DNA of 64,000 nucleotides, from contig JAUNHX010000009.1 in NCBI GenBank assembly GCA_030523765.1, positions 1 through 64,000 on the forward strand, written 5' to 3'. This stretch comes from Bacteroidales bacterium (GTDB taxonomy: Bacteria; Bacteroidota; Bacteroidia; Bacteroidales; P3). Positions 17,601-46,935 of the stretch are shown piece by piece. A program made the position numbers and the translations under genes. Position 1 is the first letter of the stretch, and the number at the start of each line of letters is the position of its first letter. Below the pieces are notes generated by a model that worked only from the letters and a program-made list of their open reading frames with translations, did not search any database and was not told the origin of the DNA.

Positions 17601-20600
17601 ATACTGTACGCTTCGACCAATGCACCGCTTCTGGTAGCTTCATTGCTATCCGCGACACCCTCTTAGGCAGCTACTGGTATGCTTATGTCGACGATATCAC
17701 TCTCGATCTGATCCCTGCTTGCAGCCCCATCGAGAACTTGGTTGTTAATCCTGGTACTACCTCGGCATTCTTAACTTGGGACGCTGTAGATTCCAACTAC
17801 AACGGTGCCCTCGTGGAATATAAGGATACCGCTGCTACCTCTTGGACTTCCGTCAGTGTTACCAACACCTATGCTCCCATCACGAGCTTGACGGCTGGTA
17901 CCCTCTACGATGTACGCGTTTCTTCTATTTGTGGCGAGGTTACTGCTTCGCCCATCAGCGCACAGTTCTCCACTCGTTCGTTCAACTGCTCTCAGTTCGA
18001 CACCACGAATATGATCAATCTCGTACTCGACAACGGTACATCAACTAGCAGCTATCTTCCCAGCTATTCGTTCTACAACTATGGTTATTCGCAACAGTTT
18101 GTTAAGGCTAGCGAACTTGGCGACAGCGCCGTGCTGACTAGAATCTCTATTTATCCCACCGCTGTGAACCAACAGCGTACCTACGAGATTTATTTCGGTT
18201 ATTCCTCCGATACCTCAGCCTTGAGCTTCATCAATCCTAGCCAGTTGACCTGCGTATACAATGGTGGTCCTATCGCAATGACAGCCAACCAGTGGCTCGA
18301 CTTCGATCTTACCAACCCCTTCAACTACCATGCTTCGTTGGGTAACCTCGTAGTGATCTTCCGCGATATGACGGGTACCTACGTAAGCGGTAATGCTTTC
18401 CGCACCCACACCGCTTGGGACGGTGCAGCCCGTTACATCTACCAAGATGCTTCGCCCTATACCCCTGGCAATGTATCGAATGGTACTTCGGTTAGCGTTC
18501 GCAACGATATGAAGATCTTTGGCGGTACCTGTCTGCAAACCAGCACTTGTGCTGCTCCTCCTGCAAGCGTTGTAGCCGTTAGTCCTACCACAATCGATGT
18601 AGCTTGGGCTCCTGGCAACACCGAAACTGCATGGAATCTCTACTATGCCCTTTCAGGTACTGACACCTATACCGCAGCTGCTATGGGAGTAACCACCACC
18701 AGCTATCAGTTCACTGGTCTTACTGGCGGTATGAACTACGACCTGCTAATCGTTCCCGTTTGCTCCGACTCGATGGCTACCGAACTTCACGCCACCACCG
18801 AGTGCGCTAAGATCTCTAGCCTCCCCTTCACCGAGACCTTCAACACATGGGGTGTCGGAACGACTGCACGTCCTAACTGCTGGAACCGCAATGGTAGCTA
18901 TAGCAGCTATCCCTATATCTCTGGTTCCTTCAACCACGCAGCTACTACTGGTGGTGCCCTCTACATGTATCAGGCAAGCTCTGCTGCCAATAGTTCTCGC
19001 ATCATCATGCCCGAACTCGACACCACCGTATATGCCGTTAACCAAACTCAACTTGTATTCTACTCCTATCGTAGCAGCGCTTCTTACAATCCCTACTACG
19101 AGATTGGTGTAACCTACAATCCCGAGGATGCCTATTCCTTCATCCCCGTCGACACAGTACAACATACTGCTGATGCAGGTACTTGGCAAATCCACGAAGT
19201 GCCTCTGAACAACTTCGCTGATAGCGGTGCCTATATCACCATCAAGACCTGCTATATAAGCAGCTATAGCTACTCCTATATCGACGATGTAACCCTCGAG
19301 GTTATTCCTACCTGCCCCCGTCCCGACAGCTTGACAGCTAGCAACGCCACCTCCAACAGTGTTGACTTTGGTTGGCACGAGCGTGGTAGCGCTACCAACT
19401 GGATTATCGAGTACGGTCCTATGGGCTTCACCCTTGGTACTGGTACCACCGTTGCTGCCAACAGCAACCCCTTCACCCTAAGCAACATGCCTGCTGCTTA
19501 TCAAGGCGAATACTATGTTCGTTCTGTTTGCAGCAGCACCGATACTGGTGAATACAGCCGTACCGCTTGCGCCTTCTCTACCAGCCAGATTCCCGCAACA
19601 CTTCCTTACGACTACAACTTCGAGGATGCTACCGAATGGGCTAACTGGCAAACCAGCACCAACACCACTACCAACTGGTATCGTGGCAATGCAGTTGCCG
19701 ACAGTGGTAGCTACAGTATGTACATCTCGGCCGACACTGGCAATACCTATAGTCCTTATCAGCACATCTCCGTGGTAAATGCTGCCGCCTTCCGCGATAT
19801 CGACTTTGGTACTATCGATAGCAGCTATACCCTCAGCTTCAGCGCCCGTGTGGGTGGTACGCTGAGCGCTAGCTACGACGGCCTGATGGTCTTCCTCGTA
19901 GATCCTGCCCTGCCTACCGTTGCCTCCAACAGCAACATCACCACACCTTGGGGCAATGTCAACGATCTATATCGTATTGCTGCCGTTCGTCTCGACACCG
20001 TATGGGATACCTATACCGCTAGTTTCGATACCATCAGTGGTGTACATCGTGTAGCCTTCTTCTGGTTCAACCAAAACACCCAGAGTGGCTATCCCAACCT
20101 TGGCGAGCCTGCAGCTGTCGACAATATCCATATCGACTACAGTAGCTGTCCTCGTCCTATCAACTTGACGGCAACTCCCGGTTCTACTACTGCCCTCCTT
20201 TCGTGGCAAGGTGCTTCCAACGCTAACTACGAGGTTACCTATCGTGCTACCGATGGTGGTACCAACCAAGTGGTATACACCAACACCAATTCGGTAACCG
20301 TTACTGGTCTCGACATCATTACCCAGTATGCTTTCTGGGTACGCAAGATTTGTAGCGTTGGCGATACCAGCCTGTATAGCGATGGCGAACTGTTCATGAC
20401 CAATCTTTGCGACGGTGCAACCAATGCCTACAACTATGATTCAACCATGAACAGCACCACCTCTAGCTATTCGCCTATCGGATATGCTACCTACAACTAC
20501 AGCTATGTACAGACCATCATCGACTCGGCTTATATGGCCGAACTTGGTGGCGACATCACCGCATTCAGCTTCAAGCCCAACAGCACCACATCGAGTACTT

Positions 20601-22625: not shown

Positions 22626-25600
22626 ATGGTTACAACATCTTACTCTATTGTCCCTCTGAAGGACAGCATGCCTAGTAGGAGAAACACCCTCTGGCATGGA
22701 GGCACCTCAACACTGAGGCGCTCGACAAGAGTACTATGTATGCTTGCAGTAGCACTACTGCTACCTTGGGCCCTAAAGGCGCAAACAGTATACGACACAG
22801 TACCCTTAATGTATAATTTTGAAGACACCACCCACAATGGGCAATGGACCTTCGTAAGTGGATCGTGCAGCAACATCTTCGTTGCCGACACGGGAGCCAA
22901 CATCACGGTCAACGGTAGCCGTTCTATGCACGTCACCGAAGCCGAATCGTCCCCCTACACCCCCTATTCCTACAAAACGGGATCGGGTACTGCCGGCGAT
23001 CAAACCGAAGTGCAATCGCGCGTATATGCCTATCGCGACATCTATTTCCCCGATAGCGGTTATTATGATATCGGCTATTGGTGGAACTGCTACGGCGAAA
23101 CCATCTACGACTATGGCCGCCTAGCACTAGCCCCCATCAGCTGGAGCTTCAGTGCCAGTACCACTGCATGGGACTCCACCACCTCTGTAACAGGCCAGTA
23201 TTGGGGATCGACCTCAGTACCCTCCTCCTTTATCTGCCTCGACAACGGCCATCCGTTGTCGGGTGTCACAGCACCGCAATATCTATCTAAAACCTTCCAT
23301 ATCGACTCAGCTGGACTCTACCGTTTGGTCTTTCTTTGGAACAACGACGGTAATACTGGTAGTCAACCCCCAGTGATGATCGACGATCTGCAGATTCACC
23401 CCCACTCCTGTGGTATCCCCGAGAATCTGAGAGCCTACAACCTCACCACCTCATCGTTCTCCCTTACTTGGGACGACGATAATATTCCCAATTCTTGGAC
23501 CGTGCTGTACGACACCTGTGGTACTGTCAACTTTGGCAACACCCAGACCGTCACCACCAACGACATCAGCATCAGCAATGTCACCTCAGGTGGTGTCTAC
23601 GACGTGATGGTACAAGCCAACTGTGCCGCTGGCGAAGTAGGTGTTCCCGCTTTCTACCGTGTAACGATACCCGTCTGCAATCCTATCGACACTTTGCCCT
23701 ATAGCTACGACTTCGATAACGCCAGCACCTACGGTTCATCGAGTATTCCTCCTGTTATTCCTTGCTGGATACATCAGAATATGGCCGCTTCATCGACAGC
23801 GAAGGGCTATCCTTACCTCTCTTCTAATAGCAACTACTCCCACAACATGAACCACGCCCTCTACTTCTATTATACCACCACCAACAACTACGACAAAGCA
23901 GCCGGTGTTGCACTACCTGCTATCAATCGCGACACTATAGATATCACCCATGTGGTACTCAACTTCTGGGCAGTGAAATCCTCCTCCACCTATACGCCGC
24001 GTCTAGTTGTGGGTGTAATGAGCGATCCCTACAACCGCTCCACCTTCGAGCCCATCGATACCATAGCCAACTTCAACACCACCCTTACCGAATACCATGT
24101 TCCCTTCACAAGCTATACTGGTATAGGTAACTATATTTCGATCCGAGAAACCTCACCCTCGTCGGGCACCTATTCCTATTTATATGTTAGCGATATTTCG
24201 CTCACCGACGAATCGTGTCCTCGTCCCATGCCTACCGTCGATTCGCTTACCGCCACCGAAGCCTACATCTCTTGGGTCAGCACTAGCGCATCGGCCTACG
24301 AGGTAGCCCTCTCCGAATCGGATCAGAGCAATGCCACCCAACAAACCGACACCACCTATGTGATGACCAACCTCACCTCGAACACCGAATACACCATTTG
24401 GGTTCGTTCGGTATGCGACGGTACCTACGGCAACTGGCAGTCGGTTACCTTCCGCACCAGCTGTGCCGCCATCAATACTTATCCTTGGACCGAAGACTTC
24501 GAGTCCTCCGCCACTGGAACTGGCAACGCACCCTTCTGCTGGACCTTCCTCAGCGATGGTACAGGCACCTATCAGAATATGTATCCCTATGTCAGTTCAG
24601 GCACCTATGCCCATAGCCCATCGAAATATGCCTATGTGTATCTGCAGCCAATGACCTCAACCAATACAACGATGCCCTATTTCGAGTCGCTCATCCTTCC
24701 CGAAATTGATACCATAGCCCATGCCATCAACGAGTTGCGCCTCTCCTTCTACTGCCGTAACTCCAGCGCCACCTACAACGACTGGGGTAAGATAGGCGTG
24801 ATGAAGAACAACTACGACGATAGCACCTTCCTCTGTCTCGACTCCTTCTATGTTACCAACACCTCTACCCTTTATGAGTTCGACCTGGCCAACTGTCCCG
24901 AATACGAGGGCTACAACCACATAGCCATCCGCTTTGCCCGTCGTGCCAGCGGCTACTTTTATGCCTATGTCGACGATGTATCGCTGATTCTGACACCCGA
25001 CTGTCCTCGTCCTCTCGACCTCGGTGTACAGAACCTCACACAGGTGTCTACCGATCTCTTCTGGAGCGACACCACCGATGCTAGCGAATGGAGCGTATAC
25101 TACGGTCTCGAAGGTTTCAACTATACCGATAGCGCGTATATTACCGCCTACGACACCATCGTAACGTTGACCGGACTGACGGCCAACACCACCTACGATG
25201 TTTATGTAGTGCCCGCCTGCGACGGTGTTCCCGAACCGGCATTCTATAGCTTCACCACCCCTTGTGATTTCATCGACTCCTTACCCTATACCCAAGACTT
25301 TGATTCTTGCAACACCAGTTCTACCTCGATACCGCCCGTTGTGCCTTGTTGGGTATACCTCAACGATGGTAACTACTTCTACCCCTACCTCTCCGCTACC
25401 GCCTCCTATTGTCATAGCGGCAACCGTGGATGGTATTGGTATCACAGCACCAGCGCCCTCTATGGCACCTTCCAGGCACTGGTACTTCCTGGCATCAACA
25501 CCGAGAACTACAATATGCAGAATCTCACTGTGAAGTTTTGGGCTCGCGCCACCTCTACTAGCTACCAGCCCGCATGGGAAGTAGGTGTGATGACCAATCC

Positions 25601-28600
25601 CAACGATCCCTCCACCTTTGTATCTTGCCAAACAATCGGCCTTACCGACAACACCACCACTTGGACCGAACTGTCGGCAAGTCTGAGCAACTACACTGGC
25701 ACTGGCAACTTCATCGCCATCCGTGGCGTCAGTAATCCCGACGGCAACTATACTTATTGGTATGGTAATCTCGATGATGTAACGGTTGAATGGACCGCTT
25801 GTCCTACCCCAGTACCCACCGTCACAGCCACCACCGATAGCGCCTACCTTAGCTGGGAAGGCAGTGCCTCTGGTTTCGAATACGAGGTTGTAGCCTCCGA
25901 CAGCACCGCCACTGGTGTGGGTACCTATGTAACCACCAACAGTGCCGAAGTGGGCGGATTGACATCAGGTACCGCCTATACCATATATCTGCGTGCTATC
26001 TGTGGCAGCGACACCACCGAGTGGTCCTCCACTAGCTTCCGTACAGCCTGCGGCGTCATCGACCAGATACCTTATTCTTATAGCTTCGAAGATGCTCCTG
26101 CAGGCAGTAGCACTAGCACAGACTTCGCTTACTGCTGGTCACGCCTCACCGGTACCGCCACCTACTATTATCCTTACGTAGGAGGCAGCACCACCTATGC
26201 TCATACTGGCAACCGTGGACTCTACTGGTACCAGTCGAGTACCGTAGGCACCTATCCCGCCTACCAAATTGTAATATTCCCTGAACTGAATACCACCAAC
26301 CATCCGCTCGACAGTTTGGTAATGAGCTTCTGGACTCGTCCCTCATCGGCCACCTATGCCCCCTGGTTTATCGGCGGCGTGATGACCGATCCTACCAACG
26401 ACAGCACCTTCGTGCCCATCGACACCTTCTATGTAGCACAAAATATCAACTGGCAGAAATTCGAGATGGTATTTGCAGGATATAGCGACACTGGCCGCTA
26501 TGTAGCCCTGAAATCGGTACAAACTAGCACCTACTGGTATGCCTATGTCGACGACTTCTCGCTCGACGCACTGCCCTCCTGCTTACATCCCTTCAGCCTA
26601 CATGCCAACAATGTTACCAGCAACAGTGCCGATCTGAGTTGGATCAGCCTCTGTGGAGCAGGTAACTTCATTGTAGAGTATAGCGATGGTACCACGACCA
26701 ATACGATTACCACCACCTCTACCTCTACCACCCTTAGCAACCTGCAATCCAACACCACCTATACGGTTAGTGTTCGCAGCCTCTGCTCCACCACCGACAC
26801 CAGCGATGCCAGCATCGTATGCTCGTTCCACACCGGATGCAGCTACATCACCCACAACGACCTGCCGTGGGAAGAAAGCTTCGAAAGCACTCCTACCACA
26901 AGTTCTAACTCAACCTCCTTCGCCTACTGCTGGCAGCGTTACACCAACGCCACCAATTACTACTATCCCTACGTCAGCTCAAGCACCACCTATGCCCACA
27001 CTGGAGCACGTGGACTCTATTGGTATGGTGGTTCCACCTCTACCTCTCTTTATGGAACCTACCAAGGTATTGTCCTTCCCGATGTCGATCCCACTATTCC
27101 TATCGACACCCTCCAGCTGAGCTTCTGGATTAGAACCTCGTCGGCCACCTATACCAGCCGTATAGTCATCGGAGCTATGAGCGATTTGAACAACGACAGC
27201 ACCTTTGTTCCTATCGATACCATCTTCCACAGTGGCATCACTTGGACCCAATACGAAGTGCCTCTGGCAAGCTATAGCGACACTGGCCGCTACATCGTGA
27301 TGAAGAGCTACTATGGCGACGGCTACTGGTATGCTTACGTCGACGATATCGGACTCGACTATATCCCCTCTTGCGTGAAGGTTACCGACCTAACCGTCGA
27401 CAGCACCTTCAGCAATGGCGCCGTCCTATCGTGGAACCATGATGCTACCAACTATATCCTCTCCTATAAGACCGCACTCGATGAAGAGTACACCCAAGTA
27501 GAGGTAAGCGATACCACCTTTACTCTTACTGGTCTCTCAAGCAGTACCACCTACACATGGTATGTACAGGCCGTATGCACCCCTGGTGATACTAGCCGTG
27601 CCTCGACCGAATCGATGTTCACTACAACCCTCTGCGCACAGAATACCATCTATCAGTGGGATACCGCTGGTACTGCCAACTCCTCCTACAACGCTCCCGT
27701 CAACAACTTCTACCGCAACACCCTCTGTGAAATTATCATAGACAGTGCTGAACTAGGCGGAGCCCTCACCTTCAACACCCTGGGCTTCAAGTATGAGTAT
27801 GCAACGGCAATGGTCGACAAGACCGATGTAACCATCTACATCCAACCTACCGACAAGAGCACCTTCACTGGCACCACCGATATGGTACAGCTCGACACCG
27901 CTACCGCAGTGCTCGTCTTCACTGGCAGCCTCAACTGCAGCCAGGGCTGGAACTACTTCGCACTAGCCGAGCCCTACAACTACAACGGACAAGGCAACCT
28001 GATGCTTATCATCGACGACAACTCGAATGAATACGACGGATCGCTCTACAAATTCAGCACCCGTTCCTGCACGGGCTACAAAACCATTACTTGGTACTCC
28101 GACACCTACGATCCCGATCCTCTCAACACCAGTAACTTCTCCGGTTCGAAAACCTACTACACTTGGCGTCCTGAGATGCAGTTCGTAGCATGCGAACCCG
28201 ACTGTATGGCTCCTGTATCGTACGTGGTATCCCACAGCTACGACAGTGCTACCGTAAGCATCGACGCCCCCATCTACGAATGGAGTCTCCGTCAGGCTTC
28301 CGAAGCTGAATATGGTGATAATACCGTTGACTCGGCCGAATACCTCACCTTCAGCAACCTACTGCCTGCCACTGCTTATCAGTATCGTGTCCGTCAAATC
28401 TGCGACGAAGAGCAATACTCCGATTACCTCTATGTCGACTTCATCACCGACAGTCTGCCTTGCTTCGTACCCTCCAACTTCCAAGCCATCGACGTTCGTG
28501 GCCTTGATGCCACCCTATCATGGACAGTAGGACCCACCGCTACAAGCAGCGAACTAATGGTATTCAACAGCACCTATGCCGACACCCTCACGGTAGCCGA

Positions 28601-29270
28601 CACCCAAGTTACCATTAGTGGCCTCACGGCAGGCGTAACCTACTACGCCCTTGTTCGGGCCAACTGTGGCAATGGTACCACCTATAGCGACTGGAGCGAC
28701 ACCATCAGCTTCACCACCGTTATATGCGATCCTGTTACCGCTGTCAATGCTACCAACGTTACCGGCACCAGCGCTGATATCAACTGGACCGCTGGCAACA
28801 ACAACACTGGTTCATGGGAAATCAGCTGGAACTACCAAGGTGCTGGTATGAGCAACCTGCTAGGCAGCGCCACGGTGAGCGACAACACCTATACTATCAG
28901 CGACCTAACTCCCAACACCCCCTACGAGGTATTTGTCAAAGCCATTTGCGGCGAAGGCTACACTAGCGATCTCGCTACCACCACCTTCACCACCCAGCAG
29001 GTTGGCATTGCCCGCGTAGAGGAGGGATTGAACCTCACCCTCTTCCCCAATCCTGCCACTGGCAACACCACCGTCACCCTCAGCGGTGTGAACGGCAACG
29101 TTACCCTCTCCATTATCGATATGAGCGGACGCACCGTTCGTAGCTACACCATGGAGTGCAATGGCGATTGCGAGAAGCATATCTCGGTCGACAACTTAGT
29201 AGCCGGCGCCTACTTCGTTCGCGTCTATGGCGACAATGTTAATACAGTAAAGAAACTTATCGTAAAATAA
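22626..29270 (+). CDS. Giant T9SS-secreted surface protein, paralogue of the preceding gene
   Basis: 2214 residues from the first ATG; a second in-frame ATG at 22668 would shorten it by 14 and places the signal peptide (hydrophobic stretch LCMLAVALLLPWALKAQ) nearer the N-terminus. The body repeats the scheme of the upstream paralogue: jelly-roll/cleaved-adhesin-like domains, several ending in YAYVDD-type motifs, alternating with FN3 domains, then a T9SS type A domain. The last 190 or so residues are nearly the same in both proteins (WEISWNYQGAGM, VGIARVEEG, FPNPATGNTTVTLSGVNGNV), whereas the internal modules differ. Probable tandem duplication followed by module shuffling. Likely a surface adhesin; ligand unknown. 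Confidence 0.9.
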   Translation: MVTTSYSIVPLKDSMPSRRNTLWHGGTSTLRRSTRVLCMLAVALLLPWALKAQTVYDTVPLMYNFEDTTHNGQWTFVSGSCSNIFVADTGANITVNGSRSMHVTEAESSPYTPYSYKTGSGTAGDQTEVQSRVYAYRDIYFPDSGYYDIGYWWNCYGETIYDYGRLALAPISWSFSASTTAWDSTTSVTGQYWGSTSVPSSFICLDNGHPLSGVTAPQYLSKTFHIDSAGLYRLVFLWNNDGNTGSQPPVMIDDLQIHPHSCGIPENLRAYNLTTSSFSLTWDDDNIPNSWTVLYDTCGTVNFGNTQTVTTNDISISNVTSGGVYDVMVQANCAAGEVGVPAFYRVTIPVCNPIDTLPYSYDFDNASTYGSSSIPPVIPCWIHQNMAASSTAKGYPYLSSNSNYSHNMNHALYFYYTTTNNYDKAAGVALPAINRDTIDITHVVLNFWAVKSSSTYTPRLVVGVMSDPYNRSTFEPIDTIANFNTTLTEYHVPFTSYTGIGNYISIRETSPSSGTYSYLYVSDISLTDESCPRPMPTVDSLTATEAYISWVSTSASAYEVALSESDQSNATQQTDTTYVMTNLTSNTEYTIWVRSVCDGTYGNWQSVTFRTSCAAINTYPWTEDFESSATGTGNAPFCWTFLSDGTGTYQNMYPYVSSGTYAHSPSKYAYVYLQPMTSTNTTMPYFESLILPEIDTIAHAINELRLSFYCRNSSATYNDWGKIGVMKNNYDDSTFLCLDSFYVTNTSTLYEFDLANCPEYEGYNHIAIRFARRASGYFYAYVDDVSLILTPDCPRPLDLGVQNLTQVSTDLFWSDTTDASEWSVYYGLEGFNYTDSAYITAYDTIVTLTGLTANTTYDVYVVPACDGVPEPAFYSFTTPCDFIDSLPYTQDFDSCNTSSTSIPPVVPCWVYLNDGNYFYPYLSATASYCHSGNRGWYWYHSTSALYGTFQALVLPGINTENYNMQNLTVKFWARATSTSYQPAWEVGVMTNPNDPSTFVSCQTIGLTDNTTTWTELSASLSNYTGTGNFIAIRGVSNPDGNYTYWYGNLDDVTVEWTACPTPVPTVTATTDSAYLSWEGSASGFEYEVVASDSTATGVGTYVTTNSAEVGGLTSGTAYTIYLRAICGSDTTEWSSTSFRTACGVIDQIPYSYSFEDAPAGSSTSTDFAYCWSRLTGTATYYYPYVGGSTTYAHTGNRGLYWYQSSTVGTYPAYQIVIFPELNTTNHPLDSLVMSFWTRPSSATYAPWFIGGVMTDPTNDSTFVPIDTFYVAQNINWQKFEMVFAGYSDTGRYVALKSVQTSTYWYAYVDDFSLDALPSCLHPFSLHANNVTSNSADLSWISLCGAGNFIVEYSDGTTTNTITTTSTSTTLSNLQSNTTYTVSVRSLCSTTDTSDASIVCSFHTGCSYITHNDLPWEESFESTPTTSSNSTSFAYCWQRYTNATNYYYPYVSSSTTYAHTGARGLYWYGGSTSTSLYGTYQGIVLPDVDPTIPIDTLQLSFWIRTSSATYTSRIVIGAMSDLNNDSTFVPIDTIFHSGITWTQYEVPLASYSDTGRYIVMKSYYGDGYWYAYVDDIGLDYIPSCVKVTDLTVDSTFSNGAVLSWNHDATNYILSYKTALDEEYTQVEVSDTTFTLTGLSSSTTYTWYVQAVCTPGDTSRASTESMFTTTLCAQNTIYQWDTAGTANSSYNAPVNNFYRNTLCEIIIDSAELGGALTFNTLGFKYEYATAMVDKTDVTIYIQPTDKSTFTGTTDMVQLDTATAVLVFTGSLNCSQGWNYFALAEPYNYNGQGNLMLIIDDNSNEYDGSLYKFSTRSCTGYKTITWYSDTYDPDPLNTSNFSGSKTYYTWRPEMQFVACEPDCMAPVSYVVSHSYDSATVSIDAPIYEWSLRQASEAEYGDNTVDSAEYLTFSNLLPATAYQYRVRQICDEEQYSDYLYVDFITDSLPCFVPSNFQAIDVRGLDATLSWTVGPTATSSELMVFNSTYADTLTVADTQVTISGLTAGVTYYALVRANCGNGTTYSDWSDTISFTTVICDPVTAVNATNVTGTSADINWTAGNNNTGSWEISWNYQGAGMSNLLGSATVSDNTYTISDLTPNTPYEVFVKAICGEGYTSDLATTTFTTQQVGIARVEEGLNLTLFPNPATGNTTVTLSGVNGNVTLSIIDMSGRTVRSYTMECNGDCEKHISVDNLVAGAYFVRVYGDNVNTVKKLIVK

Positions 29271-33938: not shown

Positions 33939-35399
33939 TTATTCGTTGTTAACATAGGCCTCACGCAACTTCTGCTCCACTTCCGGCACCAGTCGATCAA
34001 TATCGCCAGCACCCATAGTTACCACCACCTGCGGACAGAGCGCCACTACCACATTGGCCAGCTGCTCACGCTCCACCAAGTATTTGTTCATCGACTTTAC
34101 CCTTTGCAGGATCATCTTCGAGCTAACGCCAAAGATAGGCTTCTCGCGAGCCGGATAGATATCAAGCATCACCAACTCATCGAGCGATGAGAGGACTTCA
34201 GCAAACTGCGGTGCCAAGTCGCGCGTGCGGGTATATAGATGGGGTTGAAACACCCCCACAATCCGATGGTCAGGATAGAGATAGCGCACACTGTCGAGTG
34301 TAGCCTTGATTTCCTGCGGATGGTGGGCATAATCGTCGATATAGACAATATTCTTTTCGTTGATATGATAATCGAAACGACGACGAATACCAGCAAAAGT
34401 CTTCAACCCATGCCGCAACTGATACTCATCGAGTCCACACGAAAGGGCCACAGCCGAGGCAGCCACCGCATTCTCCACATTGTAGAGACTCGAATTGGTG
34501 AGCTGCAAATCGTAGAGCACCCTACTAGGGGTACGCAAATCGAAATAGATATTGCCACGATAGTGACGCACATTGATAGCATAATAATCGGCCTCAATAC
34601 CATGGGCCGTATAGCTGTGGTGCTTCACCCCTTCGGGTAAATGGATAGGACGAGGGGTATCAACCGAATGGGAGGCAGCAGCAGGTGTCTCCTCGTGGTG
34701 ATGCTGATGCTCCTCGTGGTGATGGTGCATATCCTCAAAGAGCCCCTCCTTCACAAAAAGCGCCCCCTCTGGATGGGTTTGTGAGGCATACTGCTCGAAA
34801 GCCTGCAGCAGTTTTTCGTGCGAGCCATAGATATCGAGATGATCAGGATCGGTGGCAGTGATCACACTATAGTAAGGATGCAACTGAAGGAACGAGCGAT
34901 CATACTCGTCGGCCTCCACCACCACCCATTCACTCTTGTTGTCGACCACCATATTGCTGTCGAAATTCTTGGCAATACCACCCAAAAAGGCACTACATCC
35001 TAACGGCGAAGCATGTAGCAGATAGGCAATCATGCTACTGGTAGTAGTTTTGCCATGCGAACCAGCCACAGCTATACATTTCTTGCCCCGTGTCAGTTCA
35101 CCCAGCATCTGCGAGCGCTTCATCATAGGGATGCCGCTAGCCGCCAAATACTGGTATTCGGCCGTATCGGTAGGCACTGCAGGGGTATAAACAATCTGAT
35201 CGATATGAGAAGGAATCTGTTGGGGATCGTCCTCGAAATGAATACTGATACCCTCGGCTTGCAGCTGATCGGTTAGCGGACTAGGGGTACGGTCGTAGCC
35301 CGCCACCAGGTCGCCCCGTTGGTGGAAGAAACGGGCCAAGGCACTCATGCCTATACCGCCAATACCCAAGAAATAATATGATCTACGCTGCTCCATCAT
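33939..35399 (-). CDS. murC: UDP-N-acetylmuramate--L-alanine ligase MurC with His-rich insertion
   Basis: 486 residues. The N-terminal UDP-binding Rossmann motif GIGGIGMSALA, the ATP P-loop GSHGKTTT (113-120) and the C-terminal Mur ligase domain (DDYAHHPQEIKATL) are intact, so it should add L-Ala to UDP-MurNAc. At about 225-245 the central domain carries an insertion rich in His and Glu (MHHHHEEHQHHHEE) followed by a Pro/Ala/Ser stretch, which is not part of the normal fold and resembles a metal-binding or flexible surface loop. Its start overlaps the murG stop by 4 bases. Confidence 0.95.
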   Translation of the reverse strand: MMEQRRSYYFLGIGGIGMSALARFFHQRGDLVAGYDRTPSPLTDQLQAEGISIHFEDDPQQIPSHIDQIVYTPAVPTDTAEYQYLAASGIPMMKRSQMLGELTRGKKCIAVAGSHGKTTTSSMIAYLLHASPLGCSAFLGGIAKNFDSNMVVDNKSEWVVVEADEYDRSFLQLHPYYSVITATDPDHLDIYGSHEKLLQAFEQYASQTHPEGALFVKEGLFEDMHHHHEEHQHHHEETPAAASHSVDTPRPIHLPEGVKHHSYTAHGIEADYYAINVRHYRGNIYFDLRTPSRVLYDLQLTNSSLYNVENAVAASAVALSCGLDEYQLRHGLKTFAGIRRRFDYHINEKNIVYIDDYAHHPQEIKATLDSVRYLYPDHRIVGVFQPHLYTRTRDLAPQFAEVLSSLDELVMLDIYPAREKPIFGVSSKMILQRVKSMNKYLVEREQLANVVVALCPQVVVTMGAGDIDRLVPEVEQKLREAYVNNE

Positions 35400-36499
35400 C
35401 CCTGTTTATTAGTCAGTTTTTCAATCTCGTCAACAATACGTTCAGCCGCATGGCGTACCCCCATCTGGCTACAAGCTTTGGCCATAGCCTCTCGCTGTTC
35501 GGGATTGTCGAGCAAACGGTTCAGCACACTGATGCCCACCGTATTGCATTCGGCATCGCGCACCATCAAAGCGGCACCCTTCTCCACCAACGCCATTGCA
35601 TTCTTGGTTTGATGATCCTCTGCCACATTTGGGGAAGGAATCAAGATGATAGGCTTACCCACCAAACAGAGCTCACTGATAGCGATAGCACCAGCACGGC
35701 TCACCACCACATCGGCAGCAGCATAGGCCATATCCATTCTACCTATAAACTGATGCACCTTCACCCATTCACCAACGCCAGCGGCAGCCACCTTCTGTTT
35801 GGTCTCCTCGAACATCCATTTGCCCGTTTGCCAAACCAACTGCACCTTGTTGTCTTTATAATAGTTAAGATGATTGATCATCATCTCGTTGATACTGCGA
35901 GCACCCAAGCTGCCCCCCACCGATAGCACCACCGGCCGTTCGGGATTCAACTCAAAGAAGCGGCAGCCCTCGTCGCGCGAAGCCTGCATCTCCTCGATAT
36001 CCTTGCGTACCGGGTTACCTGTGAGGACAATCTTTTCGGCAGGAAAATATTTGTCAAGCCCCTCATAGGCCACACAGATTGTAGCAGCCGTTTTGGAGAG
36101 CATCTTGTTGGTAAGACCAGGATAGGAGTTTTGCTCCTGCAGCAGCGTAGTGAAACCCAACTTAGCAGCCGTTTTAAGGGTAGGGGCACTAGCATAGCCA
36201 CCCACACCCACCACGATGTCGGGATTGAAATCCCTCACAATCGATTTCACCATCCGTTGGCTTTTCATCATCTTGAAAGGAACAGCGAGGTTTTTGAGGG
36301 TGAGGCGACGTTGCAAACCAGCAATAGGCAAAGCCTTGATATCGTAGCCAGCAGCCGGCACCTTCTCCATTTCCATGCGTCCTTCGGCACCAACAAAGAG
36401 AATCTGAGCATCGTTCCAACGAGCCTTGATGGCGTTGGCGATGGCGATGGCGGGAAAGATATGTCCGCCGCTTCCTCCTCCACTAATGATAGCTCTCAT
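35396..36499 (-). CDS. murG: MurG, lipid II-forming GlcNAc transferase
   Basis: 367 residues, standard for the family. The N-terminal G-loop motif SGGGSGGHIFPAIAIA and the second glycine loop GVGGYASAP are present, as is the C-terminal GT-B domain with SGGSLGARSINE and the UDP-GlcNAc site (SRAGAIAISEL). It transfers GlcNAc from UDP-GlcNAc to lipid I on the inner face of the membrane. It lies between ftsW (82 bases upstream) and murC, with which it is translationally coupled. Confidence 0.96.
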   Translation of the reverse strand: MRAIISGGGSGGHIFPAIAIANAIKARWNDAQILFVGAEGRMEMEKVPAAGYDIKALPIAGLQRRLTLKNLAVPFKMMKSQRMVKSIVRDFNPDIVVGVGGYASAPTLKTAAKLGFTTLLQEQNSYPGLTNKMLSKTAATICVAYEGLDKYFPAEKIVLTGNPVRKDIEEMQASRDEGCRFFELNPERPVVLSVGGSLGARSINEMMINHLNYYKDNKVQLVWQTGKWMFEETKQKVAAAGVGEWVKVHQFIGRMDMAYAAADVVVSRAGAIAISELCLVGKPIILIPSPNVAEDHQTKNAMALVEKGAALMVRDAECNTVGISVLNRLLDNPEQREAMAKACSQMGVRHAAERIVDEIEKLTNKQG

Positions 36500-36581: not shown

Positions 36582-37847
36582 TTATACGGTAGCCGAAGCC
36601 CCGTTGTTACTTTCGTTGGCCACAGCCACCGTCTCTTTAAACTCTTTGCTTCGTTGCTTCCTCTCGTCGTCGGCCTGCTCCACCTTGTTGGTATCGTAGG
36701 CCACCGCCTGGATAACGCCGATAGCAAAGCCCATCATGATATAGGCCGTACCTCCACGACTAATGAGTGGCAACGTCTGTCCCGTTACAGGCAGCGCCCC
36801 TACCGCCACCGCCATATTCACCAACGCCTGTATGAAGATAAGGGAACCCAGACCCGCCGATACCAACGATCCGAAGAAACCCTTGCAGCGCCGCGAAATA
36901 CGGAGACAACGCATATAGAGGAAGCCATAGAGGAACAACACAATGATGCCCCCCATCATACCCGATTCCTCGATGATGATGGCATAGATAAAATCGTTGT
37001 CGGCCTCACTCATCAAGCGAGCATGGACCGTATTACCCACACCCACACCGAAGAAACCGCCCGTAGCCACAGCCATGCGGGCCATATTCTCCTGCGTAAG
37101 TTCGTCGGGATTGGGATGGAGCCACGAGTCGACACGGTGGCCCCACGTAGTGGCACGCTTCAGCATACCTTGCGAGTTGTTACTATTGTAGATACCCATA
37201 GCCTGCTCACGCTGCTGCTGATGGTATGCATGACTCGAATAGGCCAAGAAGGCCACACCCAGCGCCCCTACAATAGCCATGGTGGTAAGCACATAACGCG
37301 TATTGACACCGCCAATAAGCATCACCACTAGCGAAATAACAATCACCAATGCCGAGGTAGAGAAGTTTTCGCGCAGAATCAAACCTGCCGTAAGTCCCAC
37401 CAAGATGAGCAGTTGGTAGAAGAAAGGCTTCTCGTCGAGCATATCCTGATTCACAGCAATCTGGCGCGACAGATAAACCACCAACACCACCTTACCAATC
37501 TCCGACGGTTGGAACCGACCAATGATAGGGATAGCCATCCAACGGCCACCCAGCACCATCATAGCCACCAACAGTCCTAAACTGATAAGGTATAGCAGCC
37601 TCGACACCTTCGAGAAAGCCCTATAATTCATATTGGCCAACGCCACCACCTCCACAAAGGCCACCACCACAAAGGCAGCATGACGCACGAAAGCTCGCCA
37701 CGGAGTGGTATAGGCCTTGGTAACAGCCTGCAGCTCGATGGTGCTATATACAGCCACCAGCGATATCAGCATCAGCAGTATCACCACCAGCCACAACCAC
37801 AGGTCGCCCTTCAGCACATGCGATAGTTTAAACTTTCTTGCTTTCAT
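36582..37847 (-). CDS. ftsW: SEDS peptidoglycan polymerase FtsW
   Basis: 421 residues with about ten hydrophobic membrane segments. SEDS features include the motif GGRWMAIPIIGRFQPSEIGK and the C-terminal signature GQTLPLISRGGTAYIMMGFAIGV (interrupted here only for naming). FtsW polymerises glycan chains from lipid II at the septum with its partner transpeptidase FtsI. The C-terminal 45 or so residues are a charged cytoplasmic tail. Gene position between the murD remnant and murG fits ftsW rather than rodA. Confidence 0.94.
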   Translation of the reverse strand: MKARKFKLSHVLKGDLWLWLVVILLMLISLVAVYSTIELQAVTKAYTTPWRAFVRHAAFVVVAFVEVVALANMNYRAFSKVSRLLYLISLGLLVAMMVLGGRWMAIPIIGRFQPSEIGKVVLVVYLSRQIAVNQDMLDEKPFFYQLLILVGLTAGLILRENFSTSALVIVISLVVMLIGGVNTRYVLTTMAIVGALGVAFLAYSSHAYHQQQREQAMGIYNSNNSQGMLKRATTWGHRVDSWLHPNPDELTQENMARMAVATGGFFGVGVGNTVHARLMSEADNDFIYAIIIEESGMMGGIIVLFLYGFLYMRCLRISRRCKGFFGSLVSAGLGSLIFIQALVNMAVAVGALPVTGQTLPLISRGGTAYIMMGFAIGVIQAVAYDTNKVEQADDERKQRSKEFKETVAVANESNNGASATV

Positions 37848-37899: not shown

Positions 37900-38439
37900 T
37901 TATACTTCGTTCACTTCGACCGTAAACTGGGCCCCTTCGGTATAGGCATCGCTACCATTGTCGCCAGCAGGTGAAAAAAGCACCTTAGGGGTTTCAATAT
38001 TGCGGTAGAAAGCCAAATGGACCGCTTCGGCAATATTATGGGCATCGACCACCGAAGGCACCTCGCCATCAAAAGCCTGATGTAGACGGCTGGTATCGTT
38101 GCCTACCGCCACCAGCATCGTAACCTTCTCCTTGGCCAGCGGCACCAACTTGGAGTAGTCGGCCTGATTATCATCGCCATTGGCAATCCATACCAACTTA
38201 CCCTCATTACTATCGAGGGCATACCAAGTAGCGTTCACCGAACGAGAGGCAGCATCGTTCACAAATTCTGTTCCACGGATGCGAGCCACAAACTCCATAC
38301 GGTACGGCATCTCATCGAAGCGGTTGAAGCACTGGCGCATTTGTTCGTTGCGTAGTCGACGTAGTTTCAGCGAGTCGATACCTGCCAGTCCGGTATGAAT
38401 GCTCTCGCGTCCTTGTTTTGCTAAAGTTTCTATGCTCAT
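37900..38439 (-). CDS. Truncated MurD-like protein (C-terminal Mur ligase domain only)
   Basis: 179 residues at the murD position between mraY (32 bases away) and ftsW (52 bases). It aligns by eye with the last third of MurD: PYRMEFVARIRGTEFVND matches the PHRLEFVA...INDSKATN region, then TWYAL, DYSKLVPLAKEKV, LHQAF and VLFSP. The N-terminal UDP-binding and central ATP-binding domains are absent, and mraY directly abuts, so they were deleted, not frameshifted. Catalytic elements are changed: SKATN reads AASRSVN, the DKGxD element reads DNQAD, and the SFDxF/YEDRG tail is lost. The frame is open and coding-like, so it is probably a maintained pseudoenzyme, not decay. It cannot be a MurD ligase alone. 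Confidence 0.8.
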   Translation of the reverse strand: MSIETLAKQGRESIHTGLAGIDSLKLRRLRNEQMRQCFNRFDEMPYRMEFVARIRGTEFVNDAASRSVNATWYALDSNEGKLVWIANGDDNQADYSKLVPLAKEKVTMLVAVGNDTSRLHQAFDGEVPSVVDAHNIAEAVHLAFYRNIETPKVLFSPAGDNGSDAYTEGAQFTVEVNEV

Positions 38440-38471: not shown

Positions 38472-39761
38472 TTATCGCAGTTTGAGAGTGATGATACTCA
38501 TCAGCGCCAACATCAACGCCACAATCAGGAAGCGCATCACAATCTTTTCCTCGGCCAAGCCCTTCTTTTGGTAGTGATGGTGGATAGGAGTCATCAAGAA
38601 GGGTCGTTTCTCAACTGGCACCAACTGGTTGGGCGGTAGCTTATGCTTTCGTCGATAAAGCTTGCAGCCTGCCGTTTGGATGATTACGCTGAGATCCTCA
38701 ATCACATAGATACCACACAGCAGCGGCAGCAACAGCTCTTTGCGGATAAGCAGCGCATAAACGGCAATGATACCGCCTATGGCCAGCGATCCAGTATCGC
38801 CCATGAAGATTTCGGCCGGATGGGTGTTGAACCATAGGAAACCGATGGTAGCACCCATGAAGGCAGCAATGAAGACTACCAATTCACCGATATTAGGTAG
38901 ATACATAATATTCAAATAGTTGGCCGTGATGATATTACCCGACACCCAAGCCAAGATAGCTAAAGCACCACCATTCACCGAGGCCACACCTGTAGCCAAC
39001 CCATCGATGCCATCGGTGAGGTTGGCCGCATTGCTTACGGCTGTCACCACCAACACCACAATGATAACATAAAGCAGCCACACCCAACGCTCGGCCCACG
39101 GACCCATCCAGGTGATGAGTTTGGCATAATCAAGCTCGTTGTTCTTCACAAAGGGGATGGTGGTGCGAGTCGATTTCATATTATGGCCCGTCACAACAGC
39201 TACCGACTGACTGAGATGTTCTGTTTCGTTCTGTGCCGATTCGCTGATAATGGTAGCGTTGCCACCCTGCACCCCACTCATTTCACGCACCGTAATATCG
39301 GGATGGAACATCATAAGCAAACCAACCACAATACCCAAACTTACCTGTCCGAACACCTTATATTTGCCCGGCAATCCCTTTTTGTTTTTCTTGAACACCT
39401 TGATATAATCATCAACGAATCCTACCAAGCCTAGCCACAAAGTGGTGCCCAGCATGATAAGAATATAGATGTTGTCTAATCGGGCAAAAAGCAACACCGG
39501 TATAACAATGGCTGCCAGAATAAGCAAACCGCCCATGGTAGGGGTACCCTCCTTGGCTTTCTGACCATCGAGATTCAAATCGCGTACCGTTTCACCAATT
39601 TGCTTGCGACGCAAGAAATTGATAAACGGCTTACCGAAAATCACCAAAATCAGAATCGATGTAACAACCGACATGGCGGCACGAAACGAGAGGTAGTGGA
39701 ATACACCAGCACCCGGAACGTCGTAGACGCGATCAAGCCAGTCAAACAGGTAATACAACAT
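38472..39761 (-). CDS. mraY: MraY, phospho-MurNAc-pentapeptide transferase
   Basis: 429 residues with about ten membrane segments. It contains the family motifs FVDDYIKVFKKNKKGL (Mg-binding Asp pair), NLTDGIDGLA and the C-terminal HHHYQKKG. It joins UDP-MurNAc-pentapeptide to undecaprenyl phosphate to form lipid I. It is about 60-70 residues longer than E. coli MraY because of a polar loop (around 165-215, GGNATIISESAQNETEHLS), a known feature of Bacteroidota MraY. Lies 21 bases after murE. Confidence 0.96.
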   Translation of the reverse strand: MLYYLFDWLDRVYDVPGAGVFHYLSFRAAMSVVTSILILVIFGKPFINFLRRKQIGETVRDLNLDGQKAKEGTPTMGGLLILAAIVIPVLLFARLDNIYILIMLGTTLWLGLVGFVDDYIKVFKKNKKGLPGKYKVFGQVSLGIVVGLLMMFHPDITVREMSGVQGGNATIISESAQNETEHLSQSVAVVTGHNMKSTRTTIPFVKNNELDYAKLITWMGPWAERWVWLLYVIIVVLVVTAVSNAANLTDGIDGLATGVASVNGGALAILAWVSGNIITANYLNIMYLPNIGELVVFIAAFMGATIGFLWFNTHPAEIFMGDTGSLAIGGIIAVYALLIRKELLLPLLCGIYVIEDLSVIIQTAGCKLYRRKHKLPPNQLVPVEKRPFLMTPIHHHYQKKGLAEEKIVMRFLIVALMLALMSIITLKLR

Positions 39762-39782: not shown

Positions 39783-41249
39783 TTATTTTTGTTTCTTTTC
39801 TTTCTTGTTGGCCAAAGCGGTAGCCACCTCCTCTTTGTCATCGAAATGGTGGCGCACACCGTTCACCTCCTGATAGGTTTCGTGCCCTTTGCCAGCCACC
39901 AAGATGATATCGCCCAGACGGGCCATCATGACGGCCGACTTAATGGCGCTGCGCCGATCGGTTATGCGGATGGTACGCGACAATGCCTCGCTGTCTAATC
40001 CAGCCTCCATCTGGTCGAGGATGACGTTGGGATCTTCGGTGCGAGGGTTATCGGAGGTGAGGATAACGCGGTTGCTCATCTTGGCAGCAATTTGTGCCAT
40101 GATAGGACGTTTCAGCGGGTCGCGATCACCACCGCAGCCCACCACCGTAATCACCTCGTGGTGTGGTTTCTTGATGTCATGGATGGTGGAAAGCACATTC
40201 TCCAGCGCATCGGGGGTATGGGCATAATCAACAATAGCTACCACCTCGTCGCCATGCACATACTCGAAACGACCAGCCACTGGCTTCAGTTCGCTTAGCA
40301 ATCGCAAGGCCTCGTCATTGGCCATCCCACATAGGGTGGCGGTGGCATAGATAGCGGTGAGGTTGTAGGCGTTGAAACGGCCCACCAACTGGGCCCACAT
40401 CTCAGTGCCATTGATGGCGAGGTTGAGACCATGGAAAGTGTTCTCGATGATTTTGCAATGGTAATCGGCCATGCGCTGCACACTGTAGGTCTTCACCATA
40501 GCACGGGTGTTCTGCACCATGGTCATGCCGTTGCGATCATCGATATTGACTAGCGCGAAAGCCTCGGCAGGCAAATCGTCGAAGAATTTCTTCTTGGCAG
40601 CGATATAGTTGGCCATGGTTTTGTGGAAATCGAGATGATCGTGGGTGATATTGCTGAAAATAGCACCAGCAAAGGTTAGTCCGGCAATGCGTTGCTGCAC
40701 CACCGCATGGGAACTCACTTCCATGAAGCAGTATTGGCAGCCCGCCTCTACCATCTGAGCTAGCAGATGGTTGAGTTCGAGAGCATCGGGGGTGGTATGG
40801 GTGGCAGGAACCTCCTGCTCATCAATACGGTTCACGATGGTGGAGAGGAGACCCGACTTATGGCCTGCCATTTGGAATAGGCGGTGAAGCAGTGTCACCG
40901 TAGTGGTTTTACCATTGGTACCCGTAATACCTATCAGCTTCAGCTTCGCAGAGGGATTGCCGTAGTAGTTGGATGCTATCTGCCCTAGAGCTACATCGGA
41001 GTTGTCTACTTGTAGGTATACCACCTTGTCGTCAAGTTTGGCAGGCAGCTGTTGGCACACCACCACACGGGCACCCCGCTTGATGGCATCGCCTATATAT
41101 TTATGTCCGTCAGTGTGCACCCCCACTTGAGCCACAAAGAGGTAATCCTCCTGTGCCTTGTTGGAGGCAAAGGTAATACCGGCCACCTCCATGTCGCGCA
41201 TTTGCGTGGCCTTGTATTGCACACCTTTTATGATATCTTTCAGTTTCAT
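39783..41249 (-). CDS. murE: MurE, UDP-MurNAc-tripeptide ligase (meso-DAP type)
   Basis: 488 residues. ATP P-loop GITGTNGKTTTVTLL, the carbamylated-Lys region and the C-terminal domain are intact. The motif SDNPRTEDP is the DNPR signature of meso-diaminopimelate-adding enzymes, so the organism should have DAP-type peptidoglycan. It adds the third residue to UDP-MurNAc-L-Ala-D-Glu. The need for that substrate implies that a functional MurD exists elsewhere. The end is Lys-rich (NKKEKKQK). Located between ftsI (29 bases) and mraY. Confidence 0.96.
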   Translation of the reverse strand: MKLKDIIKGVQYKATQMRDMEVAGITFASNKAQEDYLFVAQVGVHTDGHKYIGDAIKRGARVVVCQQLPAKLDDKVVYLQVDNSDVALGQIASNYYGNPSAKLKLIGITGTNGKTTTVTLLHRLFQMAGHKSGLLSTIVNRIDEQEVPATHTTPDALELNHLLAQMVEAGCQYCFMEVSSHAVVQQRIAGLTFAGAIFSNITHDHLDFHKTMANYIAAKKKFFDDLPAEAFALVNIDDRNGMTMVQNTRAMVKTYSVQRMADYHCKIIENTFHGLNLAINGTEMWAQLVGRFNAYNLTAIYATATLCGMANDEALRLLSELKPVAGRFEYVHGDEVVAIVDYAHTPDALENVLSTIHDIKKPHHEVITVVGCGGDRDPLKRPIMAQIAAKMSNRVILTSDNPRTEDPNVILDQMEAGLDSEALSRTIRITDRRSAIKSAVMMARLGDIILVAGKGHETYQEVNGVRHHFDDKEEVATALANKKEKKQK

Positions 41250-45960: not shown

Positions 45961-46713
45961 TTAGTCGTCGCCAAGTGCACCTCCGTTTCCGCCATCACCA
46001 CTACCAGACGACTGTTCGGCAGCAAAGGTGGCAGTGTAGGTAGCATTAGCCGTAGCAGTGACGGTGATGGTGGGAGTGGTTTTGCCATTGCTCCAGCTGA
46101 CGAAGGTGTAGCCTGCATTGGGGGTAGCCTTGAGGGTGACGGTGGCACCACTCACATAGCTGCCACCTCCGGTTACAGTACCCATAGCGGGAGTGTTAGC
46201 AACGGCGGTGATGGTCACGTTGCCCTCCTGTACAGGGGCTGCAGGCACATCAACGGCGTCGAGCACCGAAAGGTCGACGGTGGTTTCGCCTGCCTTGACG
46301 GCCTTCTTAAGCAGCTCTTGAGCGGCACGGGTAGGCACGAAATTGAATTCGGCATCGTCCTTCAGATTGATGAACTGGGAGCCTTTCGACCAATTGACGG
46401 TGAGCGACTTAATGTTGTTGGCCGTGAAGTCGGCAAGGCTTTCGGCTCCGCGCGAGTGGATGGCGGGCGAGAAGGCGCCCAGTTTGCCCAACTGCACCTT
46501 GTGGCCGTCGAGCAGGAACTCGCGCATGCAGTGCACCATCTCAACCATGACGGCATAGACGTCGCCTTCGTTGTACTTGCTGTTGTGGGCCGTGATGTGC
46601 TCGGCCAACTCTTCTAGTCCTACCACGCTGCGCATCTGAGCGCGGGCATAGGCCTTGGGTTCTGCATTGCTGTTCAAGTTGTTCTTGAACATGGAAATCG
46701 AGTAATCGATCAT
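45961..46713 (-). CDS. HU-family-like DNA-binding protein with InlB B-like tail
   Basis: 250 residues from the ATG at 46713 (MIDYSISMFKNNLNSNAEPK), the usual N-terminus of HU-like Bacteroidota proteins; a longer frame to 46917 was rejected because a promoter lies inside it. Residues about 15-125 form the HU/IHF-like domain (LEELAEHI, DGHKVQLGKLGAFSP), normally binding DNA in the cytoplasm. Residues about 165-231 are one InlB B-like repeat (GTVTGGG, GYTFVSWSNG), followed by a Gly/Ser tail ending LGDD. No signal peptide is present. This partner domain is usually extracellular, making the fusion odd. Last gene of the VapE unit. Confidence 0.75.
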   Translation of the reverse strand: MIDYSISMFKNNLNSNAEPKAYARAQMRSVVGLEELAEHITAHNSKYNEGDVYAVMVEMVHCMREFLLDGHKVQLGKLGAFSPAIHSRGAESLADFTANNIKSLTVNWSKGSQFINLKDDAEFNFVPTRAAQELLKKAVKAGETTVDLSVLDAVDVPAAPVQEGNVTITAVANTPAMGTVTGGGSYVSGATVTLKATPNAGYTFVSWSNGKTTPTITVTATANATYTATFAAEQSSGSGDGGNGGALGDD

Positions 46714-46855
46714 TGCTTTAATTGTTTTTTTGCCGTCATGGCTTGACATTGACCGGTCTGTTTTTTTGTTGTCGCGACCGCGGCGGCAGGGTGAATAAAA
46801 AAGTGATTTAAACGTGTTGCCACATTGGGAGTTTTTTCCCTCTGTTTTAACGTTA

Positions 46856-46863
46856 CAAAAGTA
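46856..46863 (-). promoter_or_regulatory. Promoter -7 element of the HU-like gene
   Basis: On the minus strand TACTTTTG matches TAnnTTTG and lies within the longest frame of the HU-like ORF, supporting the later start at 46713 and a leader of about 135 nt. Confidence 0.65.
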
Positions 46864-46935
46864 CGCATAATTTTTCATTTCTCGGTACTTATTTTGCAGA
46901 TTATCACTTATTTGCACTTAGTTATACTTTAGGTT

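Follow-up and report, generated by a model that had tools for sequence, protein, structure and literature searches.

In the Bacteroidales, the dcw-encoded MurD, a textbook essential enzyme and antibiotic target, appears to have been cut down many times to its C-terminal domain, and the remnant has been kept as a gene between mraY and ftsW. We describe this short form, murDC, from a 64,000-nucleotide stretch of a Bacteroidales bacterium (the window; positions 1 to 64,000 of contig JAUNHX010000009.1). It is not a single oddity: it recurs in Bacteroidales and has an older tandem paralogue in other orders of the class. The catalysis of MurD seems to have been separated repeatedly from some other property of the last domain, so that structural roles of Mur ligases in the wall-synthesis complex become testable. 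Our analysis also places a probable MurD2/MurL route in members of 22 Bacteroidales families, herbivore-gut lineages included, together with MurL-MurD2 fusion proteins. Labels such as ‘murD’ for the dcw gene, or D-Glu MurD for the other gene, would mislead pathway models and drug-target lists.

The short form and its locus

The dcw genes of the window run on the minus strand in the order mraW, a small ORF, a penicillin-binding protein gene, murE, mraY, the 179-aa ORF, ftsW, murG, murC, ftsQ, ftsA and ftsZ. Profile scans in this row cover murC, murE and the 179-aa ORF, while the other names come from inspection by eye and from corresponding gene rows in relatives. The ORF itself, murDC (37900..38439, minus strand), has an ATG start and is separated by 32 nt from mraY upstream (38472..39761, minus strand) and by 52 nt from ftsW downstream (36582..37847, minus strand). 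The nearby murG (35396..36499, minus strand), named by eye, is a neighbour in relatives as well. Both murE (39783..41249, minus strand) and murC (33939..35399, minus strand) encode all three Mur ligase Pfam domains, in agreement with an earlier note on this DNA, which had called them intact.

The same note had read the ORF as a MurD reduced to its C-terminal domain at the murD position, and this reading stands: between mraY and ftsW, only the MurD C-terminal domain is matched. Against TIGR01087, the protein scores 83-84.6 bits, below the cut-off of 211.95, and aligns with profile positions 275-419 of 441 only. With Pfam, Mur_ligase_C reaches 23.3 bits and so stays below the gathering score (28.4), and up to an E-value of 1 nothing else is matched, neither Mur_ligase nor Mur_ligase_M. 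All 11 sequences of solved structures that match at E <= 0.01 are MurD. The claim that the UDP- and ATP-binding domains are completely absent holds insofar as neither has a Pfam match, but the frame extends beyond domain 3: its start, a residue homologous to an internal methionine of full MurD, falls in the stretch aligned with the central-domain end. Compared with MurD, murDC is thus domain 3 without domain 1 and without most of domain 2. Residues 1-37 form the N-terminal segment (38329..38439, minus strand) that aligns with the central-domain end, and residues 48-179 (37903..38298, minus strand) correspond to the domain-3 fold by alignment and structure model. In the model, this fold is intact and complete, while residues 1-37 are mostly helical and of low confidence.

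Within the C-terminal domain of MurD, we take the R302 and D317 positions to be nucleotide contacts, and K319, T321, K348 and F422 presumably serve the glutamate and ATP sites. The window copy keeps R302 and D317 as well as the C-terminal F..EVNE; at the positions of K319, T321 and K348 it has A, R and N, the F422 position is also lost, and the GxHN motif is absent. The altered motifs that had been pointed out before are present as NDAASRS, NGDDNQADY and SPAGDNGSDAY. Similar patterns are seen in the 55 short forms of our tree set (5 from the genus of the window genome, 17 from its family and 33 from the order, alongside 44 full forms, 99 rows in all). Their R302 position is R or K in 55/55 and their D317 position D in 55/55; the K348 position keeps K in 13/55, and K319, T321, K348 and F422 are mixed overall. 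The histidine and asparagine of GxHN are invariant in 44/44 full dcw-encoded MurDs (MurD1), and in the short forms histidine is not among the five commonest residues at its position. E. coli residue numbers were placed by motif positions, except those named in PMC8788868. In short, the remnants no longer have the adenine-site motif or most residues of the Glu site, but retain the fold and a conserved core.

Measured against a catalytic MurD, the 179-aa protein has the C-domain fold and lacks the curated score, the ATP and UDP domains and the Glu/ATP residues. Judged from its sequence, murDC should not act as a ligase alone. It might instead serve another Mur ligase in trans as its C-terminal domain, the two forming a split active enzyme. 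A complete domain 3 in the structure model would suit such a role, but MurC, MurE and the MurD2 of this genome (21.9 bits, below the gathering score; see below) own their C-domains, and GxHN and K348 are gone from the window's short form; we regard a split ligase as extremely improbable.

Spread in genus, family and order

A search with the 179-aa protein gave a match in 114 of the 119 genus genomes and the short gene in 113, the sole match in G115 being a 911-aa frame. The short gene is present in each of the 62 genus genomes that are >=90% complete and <=5% contaminated. In the alignment of the best 30 genus rows, which are mostly 50-60% identical to the window's, mean column identity is 69% and 27 columns are invariant, among them L6, L18, A19, R30, R47, N61, D62, W72, W84, S156, P157, F172 and V176-N177-E178. 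An assembly or sequencing deletion is ruled out by the 113/119 genus genomes and by a short form that lies inside a 5.3-Mb contig (G335 C1).

Among 20 loci fetched from the family, 17 show the order mraY - short murD - ftsW. A further one, in which mraY is followed by the short form at a contig end (L053), was counted too, giving 18 loci that cover all 11 other genera seen; a contig-end fragment (L059) and a locus with no dcw cluster (L067) were left out. The earlier note had asked whether short forms define clades, and this genus- and family-wide presence at the same locus speaks for it. Among the best 80 of 183 loci, the named close relatives are mostly uncultured Bacteroidales MAGs, many of them from the rumen and other herbivore guts, and include two ‘Candidatus Colimorpha’ records. 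One record titled Christensenella sp. UBA1214 (L210), with a short MurD 56% identical, is probably a mislabelled or mixed MAG. In a same-family genome, a gap of ~3.2 kb lies between murG and ftsW (L051:2170-5379).

In a scan of the order, 290 of 295 genomes (>=90% complete) match the short-form profile, and at least 40 of these 290, spanning 20 families, carry short forms. Short and full were told apart by the frame length of the matched ORF, a full form having ~450 aa, with the state of G155 taken from its fetched locus; G330, G042, G288, G470 and G474, cut or seemingly cut by contig ends, and G165, whose frame was not seen, were excluded from the short counts. All 33 further short loci fetched across the order read mraY - short - ftsW. 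Both states coexist in several families and even genera; G444, for example, has the short form and G297 and G380, of the same genus, the full one. Three genomes have MurD2 and no C-domain match. In G262 (assembly of ~330 contigs; mraY not beside murE or ftsW), the remnant may therefore be dispensable, while the assemblies of G056 and G308 contain no convincing mraY, and their dcw genes are therefore missing.

Recurrent truncation at an internal methionine

On a tree of MraY, FtsW and MurG (97 rows, two full rows having been removed because of gaps), 17 changes of the short/full label are required, and branches with SH-aLRT >=95 force 13 of them. When truncation is taken as irreversible, there are 18 events, a count that falls to 15 once weak branches are collapsed. 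For the eight mixed-state families, a carefully built tree with 25 rows gives 8 changes (bootstrap range 8-8). A single clade of Bacteroidales short forms is rejected by these multiple label changes and by a p-AU of 4e-81 on a quick tree. The C-domain's own tree needs 15 changes, only 3 of them forced by starred branches; it pairs short forms with full forms of their own family (e.g. G236 with G466 and G328 with G464), which favours truncation in place over gene exchange. Regain of a full murD by transfer could reduce the truncation counts in some cases. In G444, G317, G244, G258 and G335, the profile match continues upstream of the short frame across stop codons, and we read these stretches as decayed remnants of the lost part.

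The column of the start methionine has M in 39/44 full MurD1 rows and 50/55 short rows, with the N-terminal alignment being unsure for the very divergent f2, G051, G240, G256 and G476. For 46 of the 55 short forms, no further in-frame ATG is found upstream within the open frame (GTG and TTG left out). The same methionine is seen by alignment in the MurD of Streptococcus agalactiae (3lk7), so it may be structural and have offered a ready start codon. There is a strong case that truncation was recurrent in Bacteroidales and mostly started at this one pre-existing internal Met codon.

One could also imagine that the C-terminal domain is separately translated via this methionine even from a full murD, and that truncation removed a redundant long form. 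Short forms of many lineages begin at that Met, and the 20 nt upstream of it have an A content of 0.43 in 39 full genes, compared with 0.33 at 281 other in-frame ATGs and 0.53 at 50 short starts. Composition, however, is weak evidence, the Streptococcus sequence allows for a structural reason, and the tandem copies described below do not retain the start; we therefore consider a long-standing internal start improbable.

Selection on the short form

For 30 genus sequences, murDC has an omega of 0.068, and low-dS pairs have dN/dS values of 0.016/0.232 and 0.002/0.139. In a family pair with tandem copies, the short form (0.004/0.33) lies below the ratios of mraY, ftsW and full MurD. Among 19 pairs, several short forms change faster than mraY and ftsW, such as G322/G220 with a dN of 0.29 vs 0.10 and 0.15. 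The pair G256/G476, with no Met in the start column, has a short-form dN/dS of ~0.23 vs 0.04 for mraY. Judging from these ratios, the short form is under purifying selection, with constraint that is uneven among lineages.

The dN/dS proposed as a check in the earlier note is hence far below 1, and the structure prediction it had called for returned an intact fold. What it had listed as speaking against its reading was not encountered: the gene recurs in relatives and across numerous separate assemblies, and dN/dS does not approach 1. With a fold conserved in the model, catalytic residues lost and purifying selection indicated by the substitution ratios, murDC would qualify as a pseudoenzyme.

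These results also bear on the idea that murDC is a decaying relic without a function of its own, its DNA being kept for ftsW spacing, translation coupling or promoter signals. A relic would be at home in so tight a gene row (gaps of 32 and 52 nt) and would agree with the upstream matches through stops in the five genomes named above and with the relaxed pair G256/G476. It is disfavoured by dN/dS, with the genus omega as given, and by the 27 invariant columns in 30 rows and the intact modelled fold, and we deem it very unlikely.

A second MurD and a MurL-like epimerase

The earlier note had reasoned that a full MurD must be encoded elsewhere. A full-length MurD-family ligase is indeed found on another contig (G000:C33:30700-31836, in a 446-aa frame), as the one TIGR01087 match of the genome over the cut-off (271.5 bits), and a genome altogether missing MurD is thereby rejected; yet this ligase looks less like an ordinary MurD than like an L-Glu-type MurD2, accompanied by a MurL-like epimerase. 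Pfam finds the middle domain of this MurD2, while its C-domain scores 21.9 bits, below the gathering score, and its N-terminal domain is unmatched. The epimerase gene (G000:C37:19606-20793) scores 253.7 bits to NF041275 over profile positions 11-396. Glutamate racemase MurI has no match at E 1e-5 in this genome, which is 95.8% complete. MurD2, the MurL-like gene and murDC lie on three separate contigs.

The residues that relate to glutamate chirality, at the E. coli D182 and K348 positions, are known from the MurD2 of Xanthomonas oryzae (excerpts of PMC8788868). The second MurD has E at D182 in 53/54 and R at K348 in 54/54 sequences, the window genome's included, as opposed to D and K in 44/44 full MurD1. 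These L-Glu-type residues led us to reject an ordinary D-Glu MurD as the identity of the second enzyme. The two forms also differ in score: among the MurD-family matches of 80 genomes (E <= 1e-48, contig-cut genes aside), dcw MurD1 reaches 385-426 bits and the second MurD elsewhere 273-347 bits.

MurL is found in 49/50 short-form genomes (48 direct; G145 and G157 by genus-mates), with G051 as the exception, in 20/20 genomes with full MurD1 and MurD2, and in 0/10 with MurD1 only; the latter two samples comprise 20 of 21 dual-form genomes (G421 left out) and 10 of 15 MurD1-only genomes. MurI over the cut-off shows the opposite pattern, with 0/50, 0/20 and 8/10 genomes, and a further 5, 6 and 1 genomes, respectively, have matches that all stay below the cut-off, the highest being 76 bits in G444. 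Two of the MurD1-only genomes lack MurI over the cut-off: G405 (93% complete) and G454 (92%), which come from a genus and a family that have MurL-bearing members. Fisher tests that ignore kinship give p = 1.5e-4 for short forms vs MurL and p = 5.7e-9 for MurL vs MurI. The curated NF041275 cut-off of 700 bits is reached by none of the 80 genomes, and the model name points to Xanthomonadales, for which reason we call the match a MurL-like homologue; the alignment is near full-length, e.g. profile 7-440 of 447 in G433, where the gene adjoins MurD2.

Fusions of the two enzymes are found at three loci (L183, L185 and L187, from G163, G207 and G144) as frames of 885-958 aa with a MurL-like N-terminal half (225-258 bits), and frames of like length occur in many family genomes. 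At L186 (G014), MurD2 carries a fused M20 amidohydrolase at its C-terminal end. The notion that the long frames (890-1050 aa) are MurD2 plus M20 hydrolase only was dropped: among four scanned, MurL forms the N-terminus of three and M20 the C-terminus of one. In the window genome, MurD2 and the ORF downstream of it, which looks by eye like an M20 hydrolase, share 14 nt (L001:354-2823 for the pair).

From these sequence features, the window genome and its relatives very probably use the MurD2/MurL route, in which L-Glu is added and then epimerised. As far as the excerpts of PMC8788868 go, the window genome shares with Xanthomonas oryzae a MurD2 with E and R, a MurL homologue and the lack of a MurI match. 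In contrast to X. oryzae as described there, Bacteroidales keep the old dcw MurD, either full or as a C-domain remnant, and three scanned relatives fuse MurL to MurD2. Excerpts of PMC8788868 and PMC5808125 name gammaproteobacteria, alphaproteobacteria and actinobacteria as carriers of MurL and mention orthologues of low similarity from a fungus, cyanobacteria and an amoeba. Among the matches listed in our literature search, nothing concerned a C-domain-only MurD, MurL in Bacteroidales or, more widely, the MurD2/MurL route in Bacteroidota.

A few genomes depart from this pattern. G051 (2.1 Mb, ~10 contigs; L101, L330) has a short MurD, yet neither a MurD2 (at E 1e-48) nor a match to MurL or MurI; G240, a similar exception, has a MurL match with one stop inside and no MurD2 found. 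A true absence of MurD2 from G244 and G317 was discarded, as contig ends explain it and the cut MurD2 adjoins MurL; in G461, MurL lies at a contig end.

MurD2 and a MurL-like gene being present and MurI not being matched, the dcw MurD is no longer the only possible Glu ligase. It was presumably not useless at once, since a full MurD1 persists in 21 MurD2-bearing genomes, where it looks intact, keeps every checked catalytic residue and is accompanied by no racemase that we could find. In 20 Bacteroidales genomes, MurL is found alongside a full MurD1 of the D-Glu type.

The link with MurL raises the question whether murDC is a partner or regulator of MurD2/MurL, which would bind UDP-MurNAc-L-Ala-Glu or a nucleotide, pass the product of MurL to MurE, or tune MurD2/MurL. 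The short forms of Bacteroidales are nearly always accompanied by MurL (49/50) and retain the R302 and D317 positions, as such a partner might. On the other hand, K348 of the Glu site is mostly lost (13/55 keep K), the three genes lie on three contigs in the window genome, and the tandem copies of other orders adjoin a D-Glu-type full MurD, so that the role would need to be general. We rate a MurL partnership as rather unlikely.

Tandem C-domain copies in other orders

In a search of the class with 144 genomes, 139 of them outside Bacteroidales, 41 have two or more matches. Among the matches listed, 31 of the 32 two-match loci fetched have a C-domain-only ORF beside a full murD, whereas no second copy is visible at L303. 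The tandem short ORF adjoins ftsW in 30 of the 31, the remaining locus (L285) stopping at a contig end, and eight single-match control loci read mraY - murD - ftsW with no short ORF. The tandem short forms require 2 changes on the C-domain tree, with modest support, and therefore look like one old paralogue. They keep neither the N-terminal segment nor the start Met. Their full neighbours and the eight controls are D-Glu-type (D182 in 40/40, K319 in 40/40, K348 in 39/40).

At five loci of one family in another order (L291, L292, L293, L309 and L310), the short copy scores ~145-149 bits against the Bacteroidales short profile vs 110-116 for the adjacent full MurD, a pattern that would fit the insertion of a foreign full murD next to a truncated old one. 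At L311 (G557), mraY and murD lie in one 867-aa open frame, possibly a fusion or a lost stop.

A possible docking role

In a large part of Bacteroidales, MurD2 and a MurL-like epimerase are present and MurI is unmatched, and we propose that this pair relieved MurD1 of its catalytic duty. In many separate lineages MurD1 then lost its UDP- and ATP-binding domains, the C-domain being kept as a gene upstream of ftsW. The C-domain has been kept without catalysis, with or without an intact MurD alongside, from which we infer that it would have a second, catalysis-free job older than the truncations. The likeliest such job may be docking, whereby murDC would hold a place in a membrane-facing complex with MurG, MurE/MurC, MraY, FtsW and MreB; we prefer docking because Mur ligases, MurD included, are reported to bind MurG and MreB. 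In this way, precursor synthesis would stay tied to that of lipid II even with MurD2 encoded at another place. As precedent for non-catalytic docking, MurD of T. maritima is reported to bind MurG and MreB (excerpts of PMC6420597), but the binder there is the whole enzyme, and no single-domain MurD is described in those excerpts.

While the evolutionary part of this account is strong, the role of murDC is a matter of interpretation. C-domain docking in a dcw-encoded complex is the best explanation we can offer, a guess from location and literature with an even chance of being correct. A broader version is conceivable, if somewhat harder to credit: the MurD C-domain in Bacteroidia could be a catalysis-independent docking or signalling module of MraY-MurG-FtsW, freed repeatedly by truncation and, independently, by tandem duplication, and MurD would then be bifunctional, possibly with an internally initiated C-domain product.

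Other features of the window

Near the mraW end of the dcw row, the ORF at 45961-46917 (minus strand) looks by eye like an HU-like DNA-binding protein that carries a repeat-type domain (GYTFVSWSNG...) at its C-terminus. Past ftsZ, two giant tandem ORFs lie on the plus strand, at 14648-22045 (2465 aa) and 22626-29270 (2214 aa).
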